From Albula goreensis (Eukaryota; Chordata; Actinopteri; Albuliformes; Albulidae), in the NCBI GenBank assembly GCA_022829145.1, contig CM040742.1, forward strand, positions 9,111,538 through 9,175,537: a DNA stretch of 64,000 nt, given 5' to 3'. Positions 8,420 through 51,412 of this stretch are shown here, one piece after another. Position 1 is the stretch's first letter, and every line of letters starts with the position of its first letter. The notes beneath the pieces were generated by a model. That model was not told the DNA's origin, searched no databases, and worked only from the letters and a program-made list of their open reading frames with translations. Position numbers and translations under genes: made by a program.

Positions 8420-23232
<14,813 letters not shown>

Positions 23233-24670
23233 AGACAGGGGCGTGGCCACAGCAAGCACGGCACTGTTATTTATTGGATGCAGAGGAAAACAGCGAGATG
23301 AAGAATAATCTATATTTATAATGTCAGCTCTTCTTGCGGCTCCAGGGCTCCTTTACTGCAACATATTAGCTTAGAGGGAAAAAAATATTAAAAATGAAAA
23401 AAAAGCTTAATTTATTGCAATAGTAGTACATATTAACATAGCTGCCCTCCCGATGTATGAGACTCTATTCCCTCCCTGTGACTAAGGTAACAAAGTGATT
23501 CCCATTTTGGCCCTTCATGTCTAGCCCCAGGCATTTCATTCCATCTGTCTGTCTGTGTGAAATACCTGAGGGGGGCTGCAGTTTCCCAGCTCCACAGGTA
23601 CCTGCACCTGTATGTCTGTGTGTCTCTGTCCTGACCAATAAGGAACACCTGAGCAGGTGAGCTGGGGAGGGGCCCCTGCATGGGTCCCATGAGGCCACGC
23701 CCCCTCCCCCCCCCTCCCCATGACAAGAGTAACCTGATTGGTTGTAGCCTGGATGAAGGAGTGAGAGAAAGCACACTTAGACAGTGTGAAAAATATAGAT
23801 GTATTCAGATCATACCTGATTAAATGTTCATCTTTCCTGGCTGATGAAGGCTTGTTAATGACCTGTTTGGTTCTGGTTCCAGTTGTCTCTGTGCTCTAGC
23901 ACCTCTGCGGTTCTGCTCGGCCTCAGTGTTCTCATCCTCAGCCCTGCCTGAGGTAACTGTCGTTGGTCGAAGCGTTGGACCGCTGTTCTGTTCACATTCT
24001 GTGGTCCATCCAATTACAGAAGGGAAAAAGGTGGTGTTTCAGACACGGTTTGAATACAAGCATCCTACTTATCGATTAGCAATTCATGTATCGTTCAACC
24101 GCGTCACTGTGGTTGTCCTTTCTGGATGAACCTTAAACCAACAGCAATCTTTCCTCACCAACTCAGAGAACGAGAACCCTCGGAAAGGTTTCCACAGTTA
24201 TCCATTTCCCACATTATGTTTTTTTTTATTTACCAGTTTCTGAAATGTTAGGAGTTTTGACTGATGTTAAGTACTTCATTGTGCTGGGTAAGGAGAGTGT
24301 GAAGGTTCTTGAGATTATGTTTTTTTGTGTTCGTCTTAAGGAAATCTTATTTTTCTAAAAATCAAAGGTGGCACTATTAAGCTTATTTCAATTTCTTATC
24401 ACAGCTGGTTCAGCTGAACACATTGGCGGATTAAGCATTTTCCTCTTTTTGAAGGTAAAAGGTGATGGAGTGCCAGTTTTTTAATCCTATTTGTTTTGAT
24501 CAATGTGACCAGCATCTATGTACGAAAACAAGATACAGCAATGAGGCACAAGGCTTCGGCAGAACATTTCTTAAAAGCGAAACCAAACAAGCCAATTTTA
24601 CACAAGTTACATTTTTTATTTGATAATGAAACAGCACTGTTGATGAATAAAAAGATTTGACTGAGATGTG
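23233..24670 (+). other. trpc5: trpc5 3' untranslated region (inferred)
   Basis: Directly follows the trpc5 stop and has no coding potential. It is AT-rich with several T- and A-runs. An AATAAA at 24646-24651 is the best polyadenylation signal, giving a 3'UTR of about 1.4 kb. The end is inferred; an earlier end near 23.4 kb is possible. Confidence 0.5.
24646..24651 (+). terminator. Candidate polyadenylation signal for trpc5
   Basis: AATAAA hexamer on the + strand about 1.4 kb after the trpc5 stop, in AT-rich sequence and before a change to GC-richer DNA. Confidence 0.45.
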
Positions 24671-24839
24671 GTACATCGCCGAATTTATTTGAGTTCCTCT
24701 GTGTTGATCTGTCAGGTCAGCCTACTGGAGGTTCCACGGGATCGATGGGATGGGTAGAGCTACTGAAATTCGGAGATAAATCAGCTTTGGCAGAGTTTCC
24801 ATGACAGCACTTAACGGCGCTACATGCTCTCCCACCCTA

Positions 24840-25200
24840 GCGCTTCTCCCTCAGACTGCAGTTGGAGGGGAGAGAGAGAGAGCTGCTCGGGCTCTTTTAA
24901 TCTGCCGTTTCTGGCGTGGCGGAGCGTGGTTCTGACTCCTCTCACCGCGGGCGTTTATCGATCAGCACCGCGCACAACGCCGGGCCCGGAGTGGATGTGA
25001 AGCTGTGAGGAGGGGTCAGGGCCCGTGGAACTCACACTCAAACGCAGCCATGAAAGCACAAAAAAAAAAAAATGTTTCGTAACACGGCGATGTGCGCGCA
25101 TCTAAATATGGGCCCTGCTGACATGCAGAGCAGATGTAAGGCTGAGGCCGGCATGCCCGCGGGCGCACAGCCCTCTGCACCCCTTTACAAACTCCCCTTT
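24840..25200. other. GC/CpG-rich island between two convergent genes
   Basis: Clearly richer in G+C and CpG than its flanks (GTGGCGGAGCG, CCGCGGGCG, CACCGCGCAC, CGCCGGGCCCGG). It lies between the 3' ends of trpc5 and alg13 and has no long codon-like frame. Promoter, enhancer or lncRNA start are all possible. Confidence 0.5.
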
Positions 25201-25747
25201 TCCTCTGCACAGCCCAGCGTTTAACATTTAAACACTTTATTCACGCACAGTATCTCACAAGCATCACAGGATTTGGGTGGCTACATAACAACCGCAATTT
25301 AGAATGCTGCAGTGCATCTGTCACATAAAAGTATTACTCCCCCACAACATACACCAAGTATGTCAACATGCACTACACACACCTCTCCGATATGCACACT
25401 CCTACCCTTTCACCTTATGTAATCTCTATGTTTGGATAATGTCATGCAGTTGTGAGCTGGGTCGTATGAGAGAGGTGCTTTAGCGCTCTAATGAAGCTGT
25501 AATACAACTGAACCCCTGATAATATCGTTCACTCACGCACAAGTGCAGCAGGCATTACAGAGATGAGATGTGGAGTTGACCGCTTAAGAGTTCAGCTATG
25601 GGCCTGTAATAGGCTGGCTGGATTTTAAAATGCTACTTGCAATTTTGCATGCATTAAGAGCATTGTAGGATTTTTAAAAAGTACAGGATCTTGCATTTAC
25701 TAACGTAGCACCTCCTATATTTGTCATTTCATTTCACCTACATCATT

Positions 25748-25966
25748 ATTACATTACAGTCATTTTAGCTGATGCTTTTTATCCAAAGTGACTTACAGTT
25801 GATTAGGCTAACCAAGGGCAAATTCCCCTGGGAGCAATGTGGGTTTAAGGGCCTTGCTCAGGGGCCCAACAGCAATGGTGTTCATGTTGTGGCTAGACTG
25901 GGGTTTGGGCCACCAACCTCAGGGGTCCCAGTCATGTACCTTAGCCACTAGACTCCAGACTGCCCT
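25748..25966 (-). mobile_element. tRNA-derived SINE with L2-type 3' tail
   Basis: Read on the minus strand it starts GGGCAGTCTGGAGTCTAGTG with A-box-like TAGTGGCTAAGG and B-box-like GGTTGGTGGCC. A body follows with CATTGCTCCCAGGGGAATTT, then the tail AAGTCACTTTGGATAAAAAG and (TGTAA)-like terminal repeats. The GGATA loop with flanking stem is the known 3'-end signature shared by UnaL2-type LINEs and their SINEs in fish. Confidence 0.75.
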
Positions 25967-27700
25967 GTGGGTCCCAGTGAGCGTATGTACTCTCTTCTCA
26001 TCCAACATCACTAGCAGTGAAACAGTATATCCAAATAATTTTGGCAGCATCCCAGCAAGATTCTGCTGTGCCTGATGTCTCTGTGTGTTTGGAGGCAGTG
26101 GCTTCAAATTGGCCATCACAGGGAGACCAGTACTTGCTGATACATGCCTGTGTGTGTCCCCGGGCAGACACGCCGTGTTGTGTGGGCTGTCAGCTCTCTG
26201 TTGACTTTACCAAGAGCTGTCCATGGTGCTGAGTGTGTGCTGATCCATGAGCCAGAGAGCTGTCCATGGTTCTGATTTCCATGCTATTATTCATTCTAAA
26301 TTGTCTGGTCTTATTCTGCACTGTTCACTGAGGGGATTTGGTCCTTTGCATGGAGGAACAAAGGATGAGAACAGGCCATTTGCAAAATCAGGCTCCCCAT
26401 TTCCCCCAGAGTGTTGCAGTAAAACCTGAATGTCTTCATCTTATTTGACCAAGGAGCCTGCCTCAAGCATTGACCCATAAAAGCATTGACAACAGTATAA
26501 TAGTATACTGTATAAAAAAATATGTATAAGTACAGAGTTTTCTTTTAACAGACTGAGCTTAGCCCAAAAACTCATTTGCAGTTCATTCTGTTGGACCCTT
26601 TTATGAATTTAAAAACCTCAACTAAATCCCCCTTAGTCATATATAAAGACCATTATGAAGTCAATCTCTGTGCCAAGCATGAGAATTATCCAGTCTCCAG
26701 CAGTGAACAAATCCAGCAATATACACACCTTCCTACTCTGCTGGGAAAGTAATGGAAGGTGTGATATTAATGCATGAAATAAAATGTAAAATGCTTAATA
26801 AAAAGTAAGCTGGTGGTGGTGATGAGGCCTGCTCCATAACACAAGCAGTCATTGATCAGACACCAGTTAGCTAGCAGTTATAGTTCAGGCCCTTAAGTGC
26901 ATTGTGGAGGTCTATCCTAGAATGAAAACCAATATACTGTACTCATCTTCAACATCTCCTTCCAAATACCCAGATACAAAAGTGTTAAGAACAGCACATA
27001 AGATGAATAATGAAGGATCTGAAAGTTTGCTTGCATACTGTACTCTAAATGCAGTTTAAATATAATCTTTACTGATGGCTCTATCAATCAGGAACTGGAA
27101 AAATATGCCAGAAGTGATAAAACCACACAAATGACCTCACCGGGTGCAAATGTAATTCATTTTCCCCTTGGGCCTTTCAAGTATATTTAAATTGATTTTG
27201 TGATCACAAATTCCACCATATCTGAACAGTTAATTAGTTGTCTAGTACTCATTGATAGCTCTGAACAGCAGGCTTCAACTCATGATGGAAAACTTGGTTT
27301 AAAATCACTACATCTGCCCAGTGGTTTCCTTCCTGAGGATTCCATGGTTGCTGCTGAAGCACACAGTGAGGTGACTCGCCCTTTTGCCATTCAACCCACC
27401 TTCTCTGACCTGCTACAGTGCTGTAAAGGCAGAAACATGCCTGAAATGCAAACAACAAAAATGGTGTGCAACTGGCCATAGCACTTTCCAACTGGACACA
27501 ACTGTGAAGTTCTCTGACAGAAATTAGACAGGCAAAATGTACGGACTAATTTCATAGCATGTCATTCTGGAAAGCACACATAATAGAGTGCAAAGTTATG
27601 TACAGCTATGCTGTGCATGTTATTCATTTAGCCACTGAGGGCACATTTAATATGCTTTTAAACGGTTAGATCTTTTTTTTTTTGTAATCTGGGGAAAATA
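25967..27700. other. Intergenic, nothing recognised
   Basis: Between the SINE and the alg13 3' end. AT-rich, without a supported exon or transposon. Open frames of up to 93 codons at 27200-27491 on both strands have no splice or homology support. Confidence 0.5.
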
Positions 27701-27731
27701 AACAGACGAGCCGAAGTTGGGAAATTCAAGG

Positions 27732-27737
27732 TTTAAT
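27732..27737 (-). terminator. Candidate polyadenylation signal for alg13
   Basis: TTTAAT on the + strand reads ATTAAA on the minus strand, about 145 nt after the alg13 stop. This would give a short 3'UTR. No nearer AATAAA was seen. Confidence 0.35.
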
Positions 27738-27880
27738 GAAAGGTAGGCTCCCCTCTTTTTTCTTGAAAACAGAACTCTGATTCAAACATGAGCCATGGGA
27801 ACAAACTCAGGAACAGCAAGTTTAAAGTAAACAATTATAAGACAGTGGGGGTTGGGGGGGGAGGGGGTGAGCATGTGCAG

Positions 27881-29218
27881 TTACATGCTGGGGGGTACAA
27901 AGTGGGTAGGGTGGGGGGGTGCAGTGATGTAACTGACTGTATGGGAGGAGGAGGGACAGAAAGAGGTATGGAGGCGGGTCTGGGCATGGCCAGGGGTCCA
28001 GGGCAGCAGGTACTGGTAGGTAGGAAGGACAGGGACATATGGTTCATAGGTGTGCAGAGGGGGCTGGTTGCACTGCTCCTGTAGCAGGGGATAGAACACC
28101 GTGCCTGGGGGTGCTGCAGCTGTGGGGGGGTCCAGGGGGATGTGGGTGCCTGAGGGACAAAGTGAGAGGAGCAGAGGAGAGATGAGAAAAACAACCCCCC
28201 CACCCACACCAGCAGGAGAAGGCACATGCATGCACACACACTCCATTCACAGTCCTGTCACAAAGCAAAGCTAGAGCAGTGCTGACCGTTAATATCCCCC
28301 TGGGTGTCCGGTACCGTTCGGCCTGACTCTGGGTAGGCCTGTCCCACCACGGTGTGCTCCGAAGCAGCGCCCCCACTGGTGTAGGGCTGGAACTGCGCCT
28401 CTGGCCCAGGCGGCTGGTACAGCTGCTGCATCTGCACCACAGAATGCCAGTAGCCCTGCTGGTACCACTGCAGGCACACCAACACACCATTACTCTCAGT
28501 GCACCACAGGGCTGCTCAGAGCAGGACTGCCTGCATGTATCTGAATAAAGCACATACTCCCAGCTGAGCTCACCAATTAGCTCCCCCTCCTAGGCCAAGG
28601 AGCAGAAGTTAACAGTGGTTTGGTGAAGTAGTGAATGGCTGGGGTAAATACCTGCAGGTACAGCGACTTTCCACACCTGGAGCTGAATAGCCTCGGAGCA
28701 CATGATCAATGACACACCACTGTACACCAGTGCAAAGAGCACATGATAAACCACTCCACTGCTTAAAAACTCTGACCACCACTCCACACCACAACACACT
28801 GCTGTAAATCTACTCCGCTACAACGGTTCACACTACTACAAACCACTACCACTCAGAGCTCTAGTCTCTCGCTCTTAATGGGTACACGGCTGTTCCACAT
28901 TTACTCTGGATGTACAGTCAGTATACAGCCCTACATCAGCAGACACATGTATCCATGGCAACTTGCACAGCTATCTTACAATATTGAGGCCCCACCATGA
29001 ATCCAGCCTGCAACCCTCCCGCTCAGTGCTTACAAGCCCCATGCCACGTACTCAGCCATAATAACTATCATAATCACTACATCCTTCAAGATCAACCTCC
29101 CAATACCTCTCCAACAGATACACTGGCAAGCTCAATTTGACACCATAATAAGTCAGAAGGCAGTACGGTTCACGCACCTGAACTCCTAAATTGAAGTAAT
29201 ACTGCAGGACCTTGCAGT
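27881..29218 (-). CDS. alg13: alg13 exons 22-24: C-terminus
   Basis: Exon 22 (29218-29178): [13 protein letters not shown]. Exon 23 (28467-28287): [20 protein letters not shown] then ...[19 protein letters not shown]. Exon 24 (28149-27881): [40 protein letters not shown] and a tail ending [13 protein letters not shown], then TAA. All three have recognisable counterparts at the human ALG13 C-terminus ([34 protein letters not shown]). Confidence 0.9.
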
Positions 29219-32200
29219 CTGAAAAGAGAAAAACGGTGTTAGTGACAGTCAAAAGCTACTGGGTGGGGGAAAAAAAAAAAAAGGCAGGCAGAGCAACGAG
29301 AACTGCACCTCGCGGGAGGTCACTGCCATTGGGGTCGTAGGAGTAGGGGGGCGGTGGGGTCATGCTGACCGTCTCCCCCATCTCGTTCACAAACCAGGTG
29401 GACAGAACTACAGTCAGAGACACGCACAACACCAGCGGCGTTACTTGCAACGTATTATCAACCCCAGTGTTTCCTGCTGAAGACAGAGTAAACGTTCTCA
29501 ATCAGGTCCCCAGGGTCCTGGTGCCAGCCCTGAGCGGGGTGTTACCTGGCCTGCCCATGGGGTGAGGGGGGAGGAGTGGGGGCGGGGCCAGGGGGGCAGA
29601 GGGTGGCAGCGAGGCTGAGGGGGTCTGGGAGCTGCCTGAGGACGACGACCCGCTGGATGTAAAGATGGCTGCCGGGGCGCTGTTGACCGTGGAGGCGGTG
29701 GAGATAACCGTTGACTTTACCACCACCTAAGGACAAGGAACAAAATGGTTGCTTCTAATTTATTCTGAATTCTTCACATTTGCTGCAGTTTCATCATGTT
29801 TGGCAGTGTGCCATAGCAGAAAGAGTGGTGGGCTAACACAACAGAAAGGGCTAATCTGCAGTAAGTAAAACAGGAGAGCAGGCTGTAACTATGCTACACC
29901 CCCTGTGAACAATGGAAGATATATCAGACCGTACCTGCTGTGAGTAACTGTAGGTTGCTACGCCCTCTGGTGGTGAGCCAGAGCGAGAGCCACCTTCCTG
30001 AATTGTCTGAAAAAGGAACAAATTGAAATTTCCAAGGTTTTTTTAATTACTTTTAACCAGGCATATTAAAAATTGGGAATTTTAACATTTTAAATAATTC
30101 TATATGAACATAGAGAGCATAGACAAACAGAGTAATAGAAGGCCTACATTAAGATGGAAGAATTCAATATTCTGATATTCACTCGGATGACTTAAACTGC
30201 ATCTGACAATTTATGTCTCAATACAAACGGCATCATTCTTCTTTATGGACTGTTTGGTGTTCTGTAATATAATGCATTGCACTTACGATCCACAAGGCCA
30301 CAAGAGTGTAAATGTGTAGCGTGCTTGAGAGTGTGCGTACCAGGTTAGGGGAGTGCATGTAGTGTGTTTGAGAGTGTGCATACCAGGTTAGCAGAGTGCG
30401 TGTAGTGTTTGAGAGTGTGCATACCAGGTTAGCAGAGTGCGTGTAGTGTGTCAGAGAGTGTGCGTACCAGGTTAGCAGAGTGCGTGTAGTGTGTCAGAGA
30501 GTGTGCGTACCAGGTTAGCAGAGTGCGTGTAGTGTGTCAGAGAGTGTGCGTACCAGGTTAGCAGAGTGCGTGTAGTGTGTCAGAGAGTGTGCGTACCAGG
30601 TTAGCAGAGTGCGTGTAGTGTGTCAGAGAGTATGCGTACCAGGTTAGCAGAGTGCGTGTAGTGTGTCAGAGAGTATGCGTACCAGGTTAGCAGAGTGCGT
30701 GTAGTGTGTCAGAGAGTGTGCGTACCAGGTTAGCAGAGTGCGTGTAGTGCGTTTGAGAGTGCGCGTACCAGGTTAGCAGAGTGTGTGTGGTGTGTTTGGG
30801 AGTGTGCGTACCAGGTTAGCAGAGTGCGTGTGGTGTGTTTGGGAGTGTGCGTACCAGGTTAGCAGAGTGCGTGTAGTGTGTTTGGGAGTGTGCGTACCAG
30901 GTTAGCAGAGTGCGTGTAGTGTGTCAGAGAGTGTGCGTACCAGGTTAGCAGAGTGCGTGTAGTGTGTCAGAGAGTGTGCGTACCAGGTTAGCAGAGTGCG
31001 TGTAGTGTGTTTGGGAGTGCGCGTACCAGGTTAGCAGTGCAATTGTGTAGTGTGTTTGAGAGTGCATGTACCAGGTTAGAGTGTGTGGTGTGTTTGGGAG
31101 TGTGCGTACCAGGTTAGCAGAGTGTGTGTGGTGTGTTTGGGAGTGTGCGTACCAGGTTAGCAGAGTGCGTGTGGTGTGTTTGGGAGTGTGCGTACCAGGT
31201 TAGCAGTGGCTTCAGCAGCGGTGTACACAGAGGGATTCTGGAAGGCTGGATCTGACGAAAAGAAACAACCTTTTCACCATGACTCATAGTAACTACTGTA
31301 CAAATACCTGAAGTCCACATTTCATAACAACACTAAAAGTTCCTTAAAGATGTGCAGGTTTAACCTCAACATTTCTTTTTGGTAAATTACGTACAGTAGA
31401 ATTTTCAGTGATACGAAAGCCCAAGTCAGCTGAAAGCATGTCTAAACCTGGATGACGATGCGTTTCCATTGAGAAAAAATAAATCAAAGGATATTGTCAG
31501 AGTATCTTTGATACCAACAACAGCATTAACAAGCTGGTTATAAAATGCCAGTAGTTAAGAAAAGTAGGTAGAGAGCAAAACAGCTAAACAATTGAAAGAA
31601 AGTTAGCTAGCCATAAAAGATGACCGTAATGATTACCAGTGAAATTATACTTTCCACTGTCAGCACATTTGAAATGAACCTCTCCAACCCTAAATCAGTC
31701 AGTTAGGGGTTTCACAGAACTGCAACATTCTGCCTGACATCATTTAATAAAAACAGAATCAACCTACAGGCCACAATTACAAAAAAACACTTCAATTTAA
31801 TCTTTAGTTATCGGAAGCTGCCTGCTGCTCCCCTTAAAATGATCTTCCCAAGTTTAACCTACTGAAATAAAATAGTGGTGTGATTTAAAATTAGTGACAG
31901 ACTTGCATTTTTGTCACTGTTGATGGGTTGCAATCCACCCCCACTGTCCAGGAGATCATATCACTGAAGTTCTACTGTAAATGACCTCCATGACCTTTCT
32001 CTCTCATATCCGAGCACTGACCTGGGGCTCTGTAGATGTAGTCCTCAGGGTATTCACCTGTAGGAAGAACAAACCTTACAAAGGATTTACATTTTTATAT
32101 TTGGCACTGTGTGTGTGTGTGTCACATTACTGGTCCCAGATCTGCCACCCCTGTGAGGAGAGGAGGAACATTCCTCTCACCCTGCTCCCCGCTGGTGCTC

Positions 32201-41600: not shown

Positions 41601-44600
41601 CACCTTCCCATCAGAATGTAATTGAATATGTAAGACTTTTCCATGCCCATATAATACTGCTATTGCCCAACTGGCATACAGGCGTGAATCCAGAATACAG
41701 GCCTTTCAGCTACAGCTCAATACTGTGTCAACAAGAGGGTGAAATGGGGAGACGGGGGGAGCGTGAGAAAGAGGGAGGGCTCCATTACTTGGAATGCAGC
41801 CGGACGCACTGTACAGAAATGATCATCAGCCTTGTGAGATATTCATTTCAGACATGCTTTCACCCCCAGGTTAAACTGGTGACTGGCCATGCACAGAATG
41901 CTGTGTCCAAACATACACCACAGGTGACCATGTTGGTCAAGGGGAGGGGGAGTGCACAGTCTGCTGGTTTTCACAATGAAATCAGACACTACAACGCTGC
42001 CCAACCAGGACTGGTCACCCCTCACATAAACACACCTTTGGGACCTGGCAGACTACCCAAAAATCATCTGATCTGTAGCTCAGGTTGTACAGTGAACTTG
42101 ATGAACAGCTAAACCATCATTAGCACTGTCATGTGGAGAGCCAACCCAATTTGACTTTGCATAAAAAGAAATTAAAGGTACACTGCAGTCAAATCAGTGT
42201 GTCTGTATCTTTAGATCTGCAATCTGTTTTCTGAATTTGACAAACCTCATGAATCTAAGAATTCCAGGTCTTTGATGAAGTTACAAGAAAGTTAATGAGC
42301 AATCCATAATGTAGGAGTTTGAAAATGCATTGTCTAAACCAAGTTTAGTTCAGTGCTGGGAAGCCATTGAGTGAGCTGGTTTTTGTTCAACCATAATTGC
42401 TACCTTGGCATCGTAAAACGTTGTTAATTGCTCTTAAGCAGACACTTAATACTTATTGAATGATTATTAGCACACTGGCAGAAGAACACATTATCAGAAA
42501 CCACTATGTATGCCATGAAAATATATGCATGGCAGTAATTCATATCCTAAGACATTTCATCTTGTAATCATTCAGACAAATTAATGCTGTGAAAGTCTTT
42601 AATGTGCTATAAAGCAAATGATGGCCTTATGAATAGGTTACAGTTTTTCAACTGATTCAATTAACAGGTGGATGTCTGCATGGTCCTAACTGCATAAAGT
42701 ATGGACATCTGGTTACAGTAACTAAACTATTCATGGAAAATAAAGAGATGAATTACAGAGCACATGGCAACAGACAACAGTGTTCCCTTAAAAACTGACC
42801 TCTGGTAAACAACTTAATTCACCAATACTACTATCCAATGTTGCAGTGCCATTCACACAGGCTATATAATGATCACAGGGACTTAAGTCTTGAAATGGAC
42901 CAACAGCCTGGAACTTTGGTTCAACCTTAAATATGAAAAGCACCCACAAAAGACCAGAGTTTTCTTACCAGGCTTAAATATCCTACAACCGGGCTATATC
43001 TAGCAATCACAAATGCAGCTCTCCAGTTCAATTAGAGCAAGCTCCATCAGGTGTTACCTGCATCTCAAATCAACCAATCAATATCCATCTATTAACACAC
43101 ATTTTTACACTTGAAATGCAATGTGGCTGAAAGTCGTCCACTCATGTAGTATTAAACATTTCAAAAGACAGTCTATTAGAACCAAGTCACACATACAGTA
43201 CATGATTTATGCAAATAAAATGTTACAATATGACCTGAAAGCCCAGGACAACTGGAGAGTAACCAGACGCACCTCTGAGCCAGCGACAAAGCAGTAGAGC
43301 AACGCTACTGGAAAAATGGCCAGAAAATACACAGCAAAACCAAATTACAAGGCGTACTTTACTCCCTGGAAAAGCCCAGCTAAGGTTGTAACACACCTTC
43401 ATGGACATTAATGTCATTGGAGTCATTCTATGCCAAACAACTATTAATGTTTTTAGATTATGCAAAACAACAAACTAACTAAATTGATAGTGGTCTTCAG
43501 CTGAAGTCCACAATTATCTTCAAACCAAGTGAGTGGGAAAAGCTGTCATCCATTACCTTTTCTGCATACTCTTCCTCAGCAATCTCAGTTGGTGGTTTCC
43601 CTGGATACCTGTATATGACAAAACATCGCCTGTGCCACCCAGCACATGCTATCACCACAGAGAACACACAGCAGCACACTCGCCAGCATAAACACTCTTC
43701 AACACACAACACCCCTGACATAAAAACGTTATCATCATGTCGAAGTCCTGAATTATCCACTGGCTCTCTCACAACAATAGGTGAATTAGTGCGCAGCACT
43801 TCTGAAGATAAACTATGATTCTAGGACAATGTCATATTCCTGAATACAATGTAAAGGTTTTCTTCATTTTTTTAAACTTCACATGAACACAATTTACTGC
43901 ATTATCATGCTACAGTCAGCTGTAATGCAGATTATGTGCAAAAGAAAAATTAGTATGATGTTTAAGTTTTTATATTGTTGTGAACATGACACACTTGTAT
44001 GACCACCTCTTGAACCCACTTGATGAGGCATAGTTGAAATCCATTATTCAATCACACCTTGAGAAAAAGATGCAATTAATGTCCCTTGAAAACACTTGCC
44101 TGTATAATAAAGACAAAGCTTTTATTTCCACTTGACCAGCTGTTTCCTGGGAAAAGATGACAGTTGTATTACATATTGAGCTACAGGCCTTAAATTCACT
44201 CGCAATCACCCTGTGTATCAGATTGGTAATTATCATACCTGCGGATCCTCCAAACGCTCCAAATACTTCTCGAAAGACCCTTCAACAAACTGGGAGAGAT
44301 GGTGAAAAGCCCCCATGACTTTCATGCACTCAGACTGGAATACACTAGCTCAGATGAAAGGTAAAAAAAAAATAAACACTTACCGGCTCAAAGTTGCATC
44401 TATTTGCTCTCATGAAGGTGACGCAGTCCTTCCGAATTTTGTGATGGTAATTTTGAGAGTAGTAAAGCTTGGTAAAGAGAAAAAACAGTAAAGAGAAAAA
44501 TAAACGTTGTTTGGGTGTTGCGTTACTAGTGTTGTTTTCCCCAACTGTGCAAAATTGTACCACATAATTACCTGCTCAGAAACTGCTCTGAACAGACAGG

Positions 44601-49797: not shown

Positions 49798-51412
49798 CAG
49801 TACAGACCAAAAGTTTGGACACACCTTCTCATTCAAAGAGTTTTCTTTATTTTCATGACTATGAAAATTGTAGATTCACACTGAAGGCATCAAAACTATG
49901 AATTAACGCATGTGGAATTATATACTTAACAAAAAGGTGTGAAACAACTGAAAATATGTCTTATATTCTAGGTTCTTCAAAGTATCCACCTTTTCCTTTG
50001 ATCACTGCTTCGCACACTCTTGGCATTCTCTTGATGAGCTTCAAGAGGTAGTCACCTGAAATGGTCTTCCAACAGTCTTGAAGGAGTTCCCAGAGATGCT
50101 TAGCACTTGTTGGCCCTTTTGCCTTCACTCTGCGGTCCAGCTCACCCCAAACCATCTCGATTGGGTTCAGGTCCGGTGACTGTGGAGGCCAGGTCATCTG
50201 GCGCAGCACCCCATCACTCTCCCTCTTGGTCAAATAGCCCTTACACAGCCTGGAGGTGTGTTTGGGGTCATTGTCCTGTTGAAAAATAAATGATGGTCCA
50301 ACTAAACGCAAACCGGATGGAATAGCATGCCGCTGCAAGATGCTGTGGTAGCCATGCTGGTTCAGTATGCCTTCAATTTTGAATAAATCCCCAACGGTGT
50401 CACCAGCAAAGCACCCCCACACCATCACACCTCCTCCTCCATGCTTCACGGTGGGAACCAGGCATGTAGAGTCCATCCCTTCACCTTTTCTGCATCGCAC
50501 AAAGACACGGTGGTTGGAACCAAAGATCTCAAATTTGGACTCAGACCAAAGCACAGATTTCCACTGGTCTAATGTCCATTCCTTGTGTTCTTTAGCCCAA
50601 ACAAGTCTCTTCTGCTTGTTGCCTGTCCTTAGCAGTGGTTTCCTAGCAGCTATTCTACCATGAAGGCCTGATTCACACAGTCTCCTCTTAACAGTTGTTC
50701 TAGAGATGTGTCTGCTGCTATAACTCTGTGTGGCATTGACCTGGTCTCTAATCTGAGCTGCTGTTAACCTGCGATTTCTGAGGCTGGTGACTCGGATGAA
50801 CTTATCCTCCGCAGCAGAGGTGACTCTTGGTCTTCCTTTCCTGGGGCGGTCCTCATGTGAGCCAGTTTCTTTGAAGTGCTTGATGGTTTTTGCGACTGCA
50901 CTTGGGGACACTTTCAAAGTTTTCCCAATTTTTCGGACTGACTGACCTTATCATGATGGCCACTCGTTTTTCTTTACTCAGCTGCTTTTTTTCTTGCCAT
51001 AATACAAATTCTAACAGTCTATTCAGTAGGACTATCAGCTGTGTATCCATCTGACTTCTGCACAACACAACTGATGGTCCCAACCCCATTTATAAGGCAA
51101 GAAATCTCACTTATTAAACCTGACAGGGCACACCTGTGAAGTGAAAACCATTTCAGGTGACTACCTCTTGAAGCTCATCAAGAGAATGCCAAGAGTGTGC
51201 GAAGCAGTGATCAAAGGAAAAGGTGGCTACTTTGAAGAACCTAGAATATAAGACATATTTTCAGTTGTTTCACATATTTTTTTGTTAAGTATATAATTTC
51301 ATCATGTGTTATTTTTTTGATGCCTTCAGTGTGAAAATCTACAATTTTCAAGTCAAAAAATAAAGAAAACTCTTTGAATGAGAAGGTGTGTCCAAACTTT
51401 TGGTCTGTACTG
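49798..51412 (-). mobile_element. Tc1-like DNA transposon, 1615 bp, DD38E spacing (Intruder-like)
   Basis: Flanked by TA (49796-49797 and 51413-51414). Outer terminal repeats are identical over about 60 bp (CAGTACAGACCAAAAGTTTG...). Inverted homology extends further, with small gaps, to arms of about 265 bp (49798-50065 and 51148-51412). The right arm therefore carries an inverted copy of the transposase 3' end. Spacing between the second Asp (QQDNDPKH) and the Glu (DLNPIE) is 38 residues, the DD38E arrangement reported for the Intruder family. The near-identical ends suggest a recent copy. Confidence 0.9.
49961..51000 (-). pseudogene. Tc1-like transposase, inactivated
   Basis: A 318-codon frame (50917-49961) encodes most of a Tc1 transposase: paired DNA-binding helices (SPSAVAKTIKHFKETG, SRTTVKRRLCESGLHG), GRPR hook and catalytic core ending GGYFEEPRI. 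The first catalytic Asp is missing: WKSVLWSESKFEIFG stands where the family has WSDESKF, an in-frame loss of one GAT codon. The original ATG is at 51000. Downstream of it one extra A in a run of seven and a duplicated AGTC (near 50938-50945) break the frame, so the ATG at 50917 is not the true start. Confidence 0.9.

Follow-up and report, generated by a model that had tools for sequence, protein, structure and literature searches.

A 43-bp minisatellite repeats the splice donor of a coding exon in an alg13-like gene of Albula goreensis

Introduction

When the end of a coding exon and its splice donor are repeated many times over in the intron that follows, how could such an arrangement have arisen, and what would the use of each copy mean for the transcript? 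This question is raised by an alg13-like gene of the fish Albula goreensis, in a stretch of 64,000 nucleotides (GenBank assembly GCA_022829145.1, contig CM040742.1, forward-strand positions 9,111,538 to 9,175,537), here called the window, to which all coordinates refer unless stated otherwise. A first-pass annotation of the window had proposed that a short exon of this gene is followed by about 21 near-identical 5' splice sites, that only every third copy keeps the reading frame, and that the repeat unit arose by duplication across the exon-intron boundary.

Results

On the minus strand, a 56-nt coding exon (exon 18 in the numbering of the first-pass annotation) has the tail GCT AAC CTG and the donor CTG/GTACGC, where the slash marks the end of the exon. 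We refer to this donor as donor 1. The features of the locus, all on the minus strand, are as follows:

31251..31196, minus: coding exon, 56 nt, with an acceptor and an open frame, ending in phase 0
31194..31195, minus: donor 1, unique among the 21 ladder donors in leaving the reading frame open
30314..31206, minus: 43-bp minisatellite of 21 donor-bearing units, extending 11 nt into the exon
30339..31152, minus: 20 duplicate donors, with the G of the GT at 31152, 31109, 31071, 31026, 30983 and so on to 30383 and 30340
30314..30424, minus: distal units 19-21, with donors at 30424, 30383 and 30340
30007..31195, minus: array-bearing intron, 1189 nt, about three-quarters of which is array
29935..30006, minus: next coding exon, 72 nt, phase 0

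Tandem Repeats Finder (TRF) reported a single array at 30314-31206 with a period of 43, 20.9 copies and 92% matches. From the exon end onward, TAACCTGGTA occurs 21 times, once at the exon's own donor at 31195 and then in 20 copies down to 30340. The predicted ladder of about 21 near-identical 5' splice sites at the start of the intron was therefore recovered in full number, although its composition differs from the original description in that one of the sites is the exon's own donor and 20 are copies. Neighbouring donors are 43 nt apart in 17 of 20 cases, the remaining three spacings being 38, 45 and 41 nt. CTG/GTA is present in all 21 units and 18 are identical over nine bases (18 CTG/GTACGC, two CTG/GTATGC and one CTG/GTACAT), and each of the 21 GT dinucleotides between 31195 and 30320 is a ladder donor. 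The exact 15-mer GCTAACCTGGTACGC is found in 17 of the 21 units, and a pattern search of the whole 932-Mb genome returned 17 matches, all inside the alg13 array.

The only AG between 31195 and 30314 lies at 30325. An 886-nt stretch here is the longest gap between successive AGs on either strand of the window, so that the array holds no acceptor before 30325, and cryptic acceptors within it were rejected on these grounds. An alternative end for the 56-nt exon was also rejected, as its two other GTs score about -3.

To assign the gene, we joined its exons at guessed junctions and compared the product with the OTU domain of Pfam, which gave a match just below the curated cut-off (E 1.7e-4; 22.5 bits against 23.3); the joined exons also matched four solved OTU sequences (best E 2e-7). 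A Pfam search with ten single open segments had yielded two matches, both to a neighbouring channel gene, and missed the OTU domain. Against hand-entered segments of human ALG13, the segment over the 56-nt exon was identical at 22 of 53 positions and a second segment at 23 of 28, and the exon junction TANL/TIQ aligned to TANL-SLQ of the human protein without a gap or extra residues. Three other comparisons lent this identity no support: a Tudor-like segment had no match in Pfam or NCBIfam, the tail of the gene had none in Pfam or among solved structures, and the N-terminal glycosyltransferase domain was not found when the minus strand beyond 44 kb was scanned crudely for motifs.

Translation of the 21 possible isoforms over four exons showed that exactly one of the 21 near-identical donors is productive. 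Donor 1 leaves the frame open, whereas all 20 distal donors lead to the identical stop, an in-frame TAA in unit 2 in the context TGC TAA CCT. Since 43 = 3 x 14 + 1, the copy of the exon tail GCTAACCTG in unit 2 falls one base out of register, and because it is then misread as TGC TAA CCT, every distal donor runs into a premature stop. The proposal that every third copy keeps the frame thus fails: six of the 20 distal donors do extend the exon by a multiple of three, yet they meet the unit-2 stop regardless. From this stop it is 4 to 816 nt to where the next exon is joined, and 76 to 888 nt to the junction at the far end of that exon. With a later junction always at least 76 nt downstream, transcripts from distal donors would be expected to undergo nonsense-mediated decay. 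Skipping of the 56-nt exon likewise shifts the frame. A GTAAGT at 30286 (minus strand), 54 nt past the last ladder donor, has a score of 6.07, slightly above that of donor 1; as a candidate for the real exon end it was rejected, since this extension runs into the unit-2 stop too.

Donors were scored with a hand-entered vertebrate donor matrix, for which the maximum is 12.67. Donor 1 reached 5.65, as did 17 of its copies, and was the weakest of the 12 alg13 donors listed, the other 11 of which were hand-picked from open segments, where 14 of the 17 anchors could be placed; at least one of the 11, near 44057, is uncertain. Pairing of the duplicate donors with the 5' end of U1 was also weak, at -4.1 compared to -11.8 kcal/mol for the consensus. 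As a control, 20,000 random 43-mers were drawn from the window, of which 13.1% held, on one strand, a donor that equalled or exceeded donor 1; four of the eight array units scored, the alg13 array included, reached that level on at least one strand. Because random 43-mers and other arrays so often reach this level, a ladder of donor motifs in a minisatellite is unremarkable in itself. The uncommon feature is that the first rung of the ladder is the working donor of an exon. A further donor-like ladder, with no exon shown adjoining, is formed by a 33-bp array at 18500-18645 on the plus strand, which has 4.4 copies, each with AAG/GTAACA (6.76).

We then considered the origin of the array. Of the 20 downstream units, 18 contain an exact copy of the last 11 exon bases, and in unit 5 the copy extends to 13 bases, while the last 8 bases of the unit appeared at the end of the shuffled exon in only two of 200,000 trials. 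Units are repeated in blocks (unit 1 equals unit 9 and unit 2 equals unit 10, with one type at positions 6, 7, 12 and 15-18), resembling other minisatellites. The exon plus the flank upstream of it (150 bases) was then compared with the genome in a search that scored the best candidates only; apart from the alg13 locus it returned four others, all of them within 15 kb of the end of contig C1. The broken gene copies at that end of C1 cover this region:

C1:72087602-72104835 (L013 1603-6465, L014 2191-8836), near the end of C1: broken alg13 fragments

In each of the four C1 copies, which sit amid TTAGGG-like satellite, homology spans the upstream intron, the exon and one unit, GTATGCACACTCTCACGCATACTACATT or nearly so, and then ends; in the 900 bases counted from that point, CCTGGTA occurs a single time in each copy. 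In all four comparisons the closest match to the single C1 unit was distal unit 20, with local scores of 31-32 compared to at most 25.5 for any other unit, and copy B matched at 24 of 27 bases. In two of the four, the exon has lost one base. A further piece of C1 aligns with the window as far as 30300 and stops 14 bp away from the array. The T of GTATGC is shared by the four C1 copies and units 19-20, although the polarity between GTATGC and GTACGC is uncertain because this is a CpG change that may have recurred. Taken together, the C1 paralog suggests a single-unit ancestor in which the distal end of the array would correspond to the old intron start; this can be suggestive only, because the fragments are truncated where the array sits. 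The proposed duplication across the exon-intron boundary is nevertheless supported, both by the 11-13 exon bases within the unit and by the single-unit state of the four truncated paralogous fragments.

With regard to the overall layout of C1, the 3' alg13 part matches pieces of the window at 24487-30300 and is followed by a 38-bp telomere-like array (21 copies) and then by an inverted exon 17-18 piece. In total, four copies of this inverted piece are present, lying amid TTAGGG-like satellite with a unit length of about 166 bp.

The neighbouring gene on the plus strand encodes an ion channel by its Pfam match, which we take to be trpc5-like, and it carries an array of its own:

15485-16133, plus: 39-bp array, 16.4 perfect copies, in the trpc5-like gene, starting at the second base of the intron

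Here the exon ends ACG/GTCAGA, and the donor is not copied, since the later units have ATCAGA in its place. Between 15300 and 17500 no other donor-like GT scores above 3.5, and no stop interrupts the array in the frame of the exon. The presence of a second array starting at a donor in the same window suggests that such arrays may merit a genome-wide count. Elsewhere in the window, a long open frame at 49964-50947 (minus strand) presumably represents a Tc1-type transposase.

Discussion

The explanation we favour is that a segment spanning the exon-intron boundary, made up of the donor with about 11-13 exon bases before it and about 30 bases of the intron after it, was duplicated in tandem, and that the array would later have spread by block duplication. 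Donor 1, the exon-proximal site, would be used for most mRNA, and neighbouring donors may be used at a low level, yielding transcripts with an extended exon and a stop, which nonsense-mediated decay would clear. On this view the array would impose a mild, tolerated cost on splicing rather than serve as a source of protein variants, in parallel to the ABCA7 variable number tandem repeat (VNTR). For the anatomy, the boundary origin and the dominance of donor 1 taken jointly, we put the probability at roughly 0.7; low-level use of distal donors, taken alone, appears about as probable as its opposite.

Several observations weigh against this explanation. Donor 1 ties with 17 of its copies, and the two CTG/GTATGC copies slightly exceed it (6.16 compared to 5.65), so position or exon signals must decide between them. 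By a rule from the literature, the intron-proximal donor wins when the competing donors are equal and well occupied, which would predict the opposite outcome. The C1 fragments break right behind their first unit, and an earlier array could have been lost with the break. Finally, all of the evidence presented here is genome sequence.

The array could also be a passive minisatellite with the same anatomy and origin, whose duplicate donors are never used because donor 1 wins by exon definition, leaving alg13 unaffected. The frequency of donor-like motifs in repeat units and in random 43-mers is in keeping with this, as is the weakness of the duplicate donors by matrix score and U1 pairing, but the real donor is equally weak and the nine donor bases do not separate it from the copies. 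In addition, the second-unit donor of ABCA7 is used at about 2% (PMC5954066). We regard strict passivity as a serious possibility, albeit at somewhat less than even odds. A length-tunable brake, in which the length of the array sets the extent of non-productive splicing or exon skipping and copy number thereby tunes alg13 dosage, seems unlikely. It is consistent with the non-productive outcome of every distal donor and of skipping the 56-nt exon, and the array is richer in certain motifs than shuffles of the same composition (ACACAC 23 compared to 1.3; CTCTCT 9 compared to 0.4); CA-rich and CTCTCT motifs bind hnRNP L and PTB. However, in a repeat the same unit enters such a motif count many times over. 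ABCA7 bears on this idea in both directions, since VNTR length correlated with skipping of the next exon while retention of a single unit did not change with it (PMC5954066).

A related proposal, that donor 1 undergoes concerted evolution with its 20 non-productive copies while array length tunes alg13 through decay of distal-donor transcripts, is in our view quite unlikely. Repeat homogenisation would then account for the identity of donor 1 to 17 of its copies and, if true, the locus would offer a natural series for testing spliceosome choice between numerous equal donors set at almost uniform 43-nt intervals. An assembly artefact, with copy number inflated or the array misplaced, is very improbable: repeats are hard to assemble, but there are eight unit types in irregular order among the 17 units of 43 bases, and the array, about 0.9 kb long, lies within a contig of 50 Mb in an assembly of 208 contigs. 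The locus is an unusually clean natural case, in which a single productive donor precedes 20 near-identical copies that are non-productive and regularly spaced, and it should be useful for asking why the first donor wins.

The closest known system is the human ABCA7 intron-18 VNTR, which flanks exon 18 and includes its donor, the 25-bp unit beginning with the donor GT (PMC5954066). Use of the donor of the next unit adds 25 nt and results in a frame shift and a premature stop, in 2 +/- 1% of transcripts, and the premature-stop transcripts rose with cycloheximide (PMC5954066). Both systems have a minisatellite that abuts an exon, a first unit holding the donor of that exon, a donor carried by most units (all 21 in alg13), and a frameshift or premature stop upon use of repeat donors, predicted by translation for 20 of 20 in alg13. 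They differ in unit length and number (25 bp and about 12 to 427 copies in ABCA7; 43 bp and 21 donors in alg13) and in the start of the unit, which is described from the GT in ABCA7 and includes 11 exon bases in alg13. Transcripts and length variation were measured for ABCA7, whereas alg13 is known here from one genome assembly.

A second human case is the IFI6 (6-16, G1P3) minisatellite, which has a 12-bp unit and is reportedly the subject of a study by Turri et al. from 1995. It provides multiple splice donors, with two downstream units used as such (PMC4526556). Its repeat donors are said to give different protein isoforms, whereas the distal donors of alg13 yielded no translatable variants of this type, all 20 leading to the same stop on translation. 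The 38-bp VNTR in intron 6 of human TERT is, like the alg13 array, an intronic minisatellite, and it affects splicing (PMC3948165); a donor ladder is not mentioned in the available part of that source.

Among the 10 papers listed of 4,877 open-licence matches to a search naming ALG13, none showed a donor-copying array in this gene, which is weak evidence of absence and weak backing for the first-pass remark that no such case was known there. The architecture itself and its frameshift and stop outcome have already been published for ABCA7. What alg13 adds is a fish gene, extending donor-copying minisatellites beyond the two human cases considered here, ABCA7 and IFI6.
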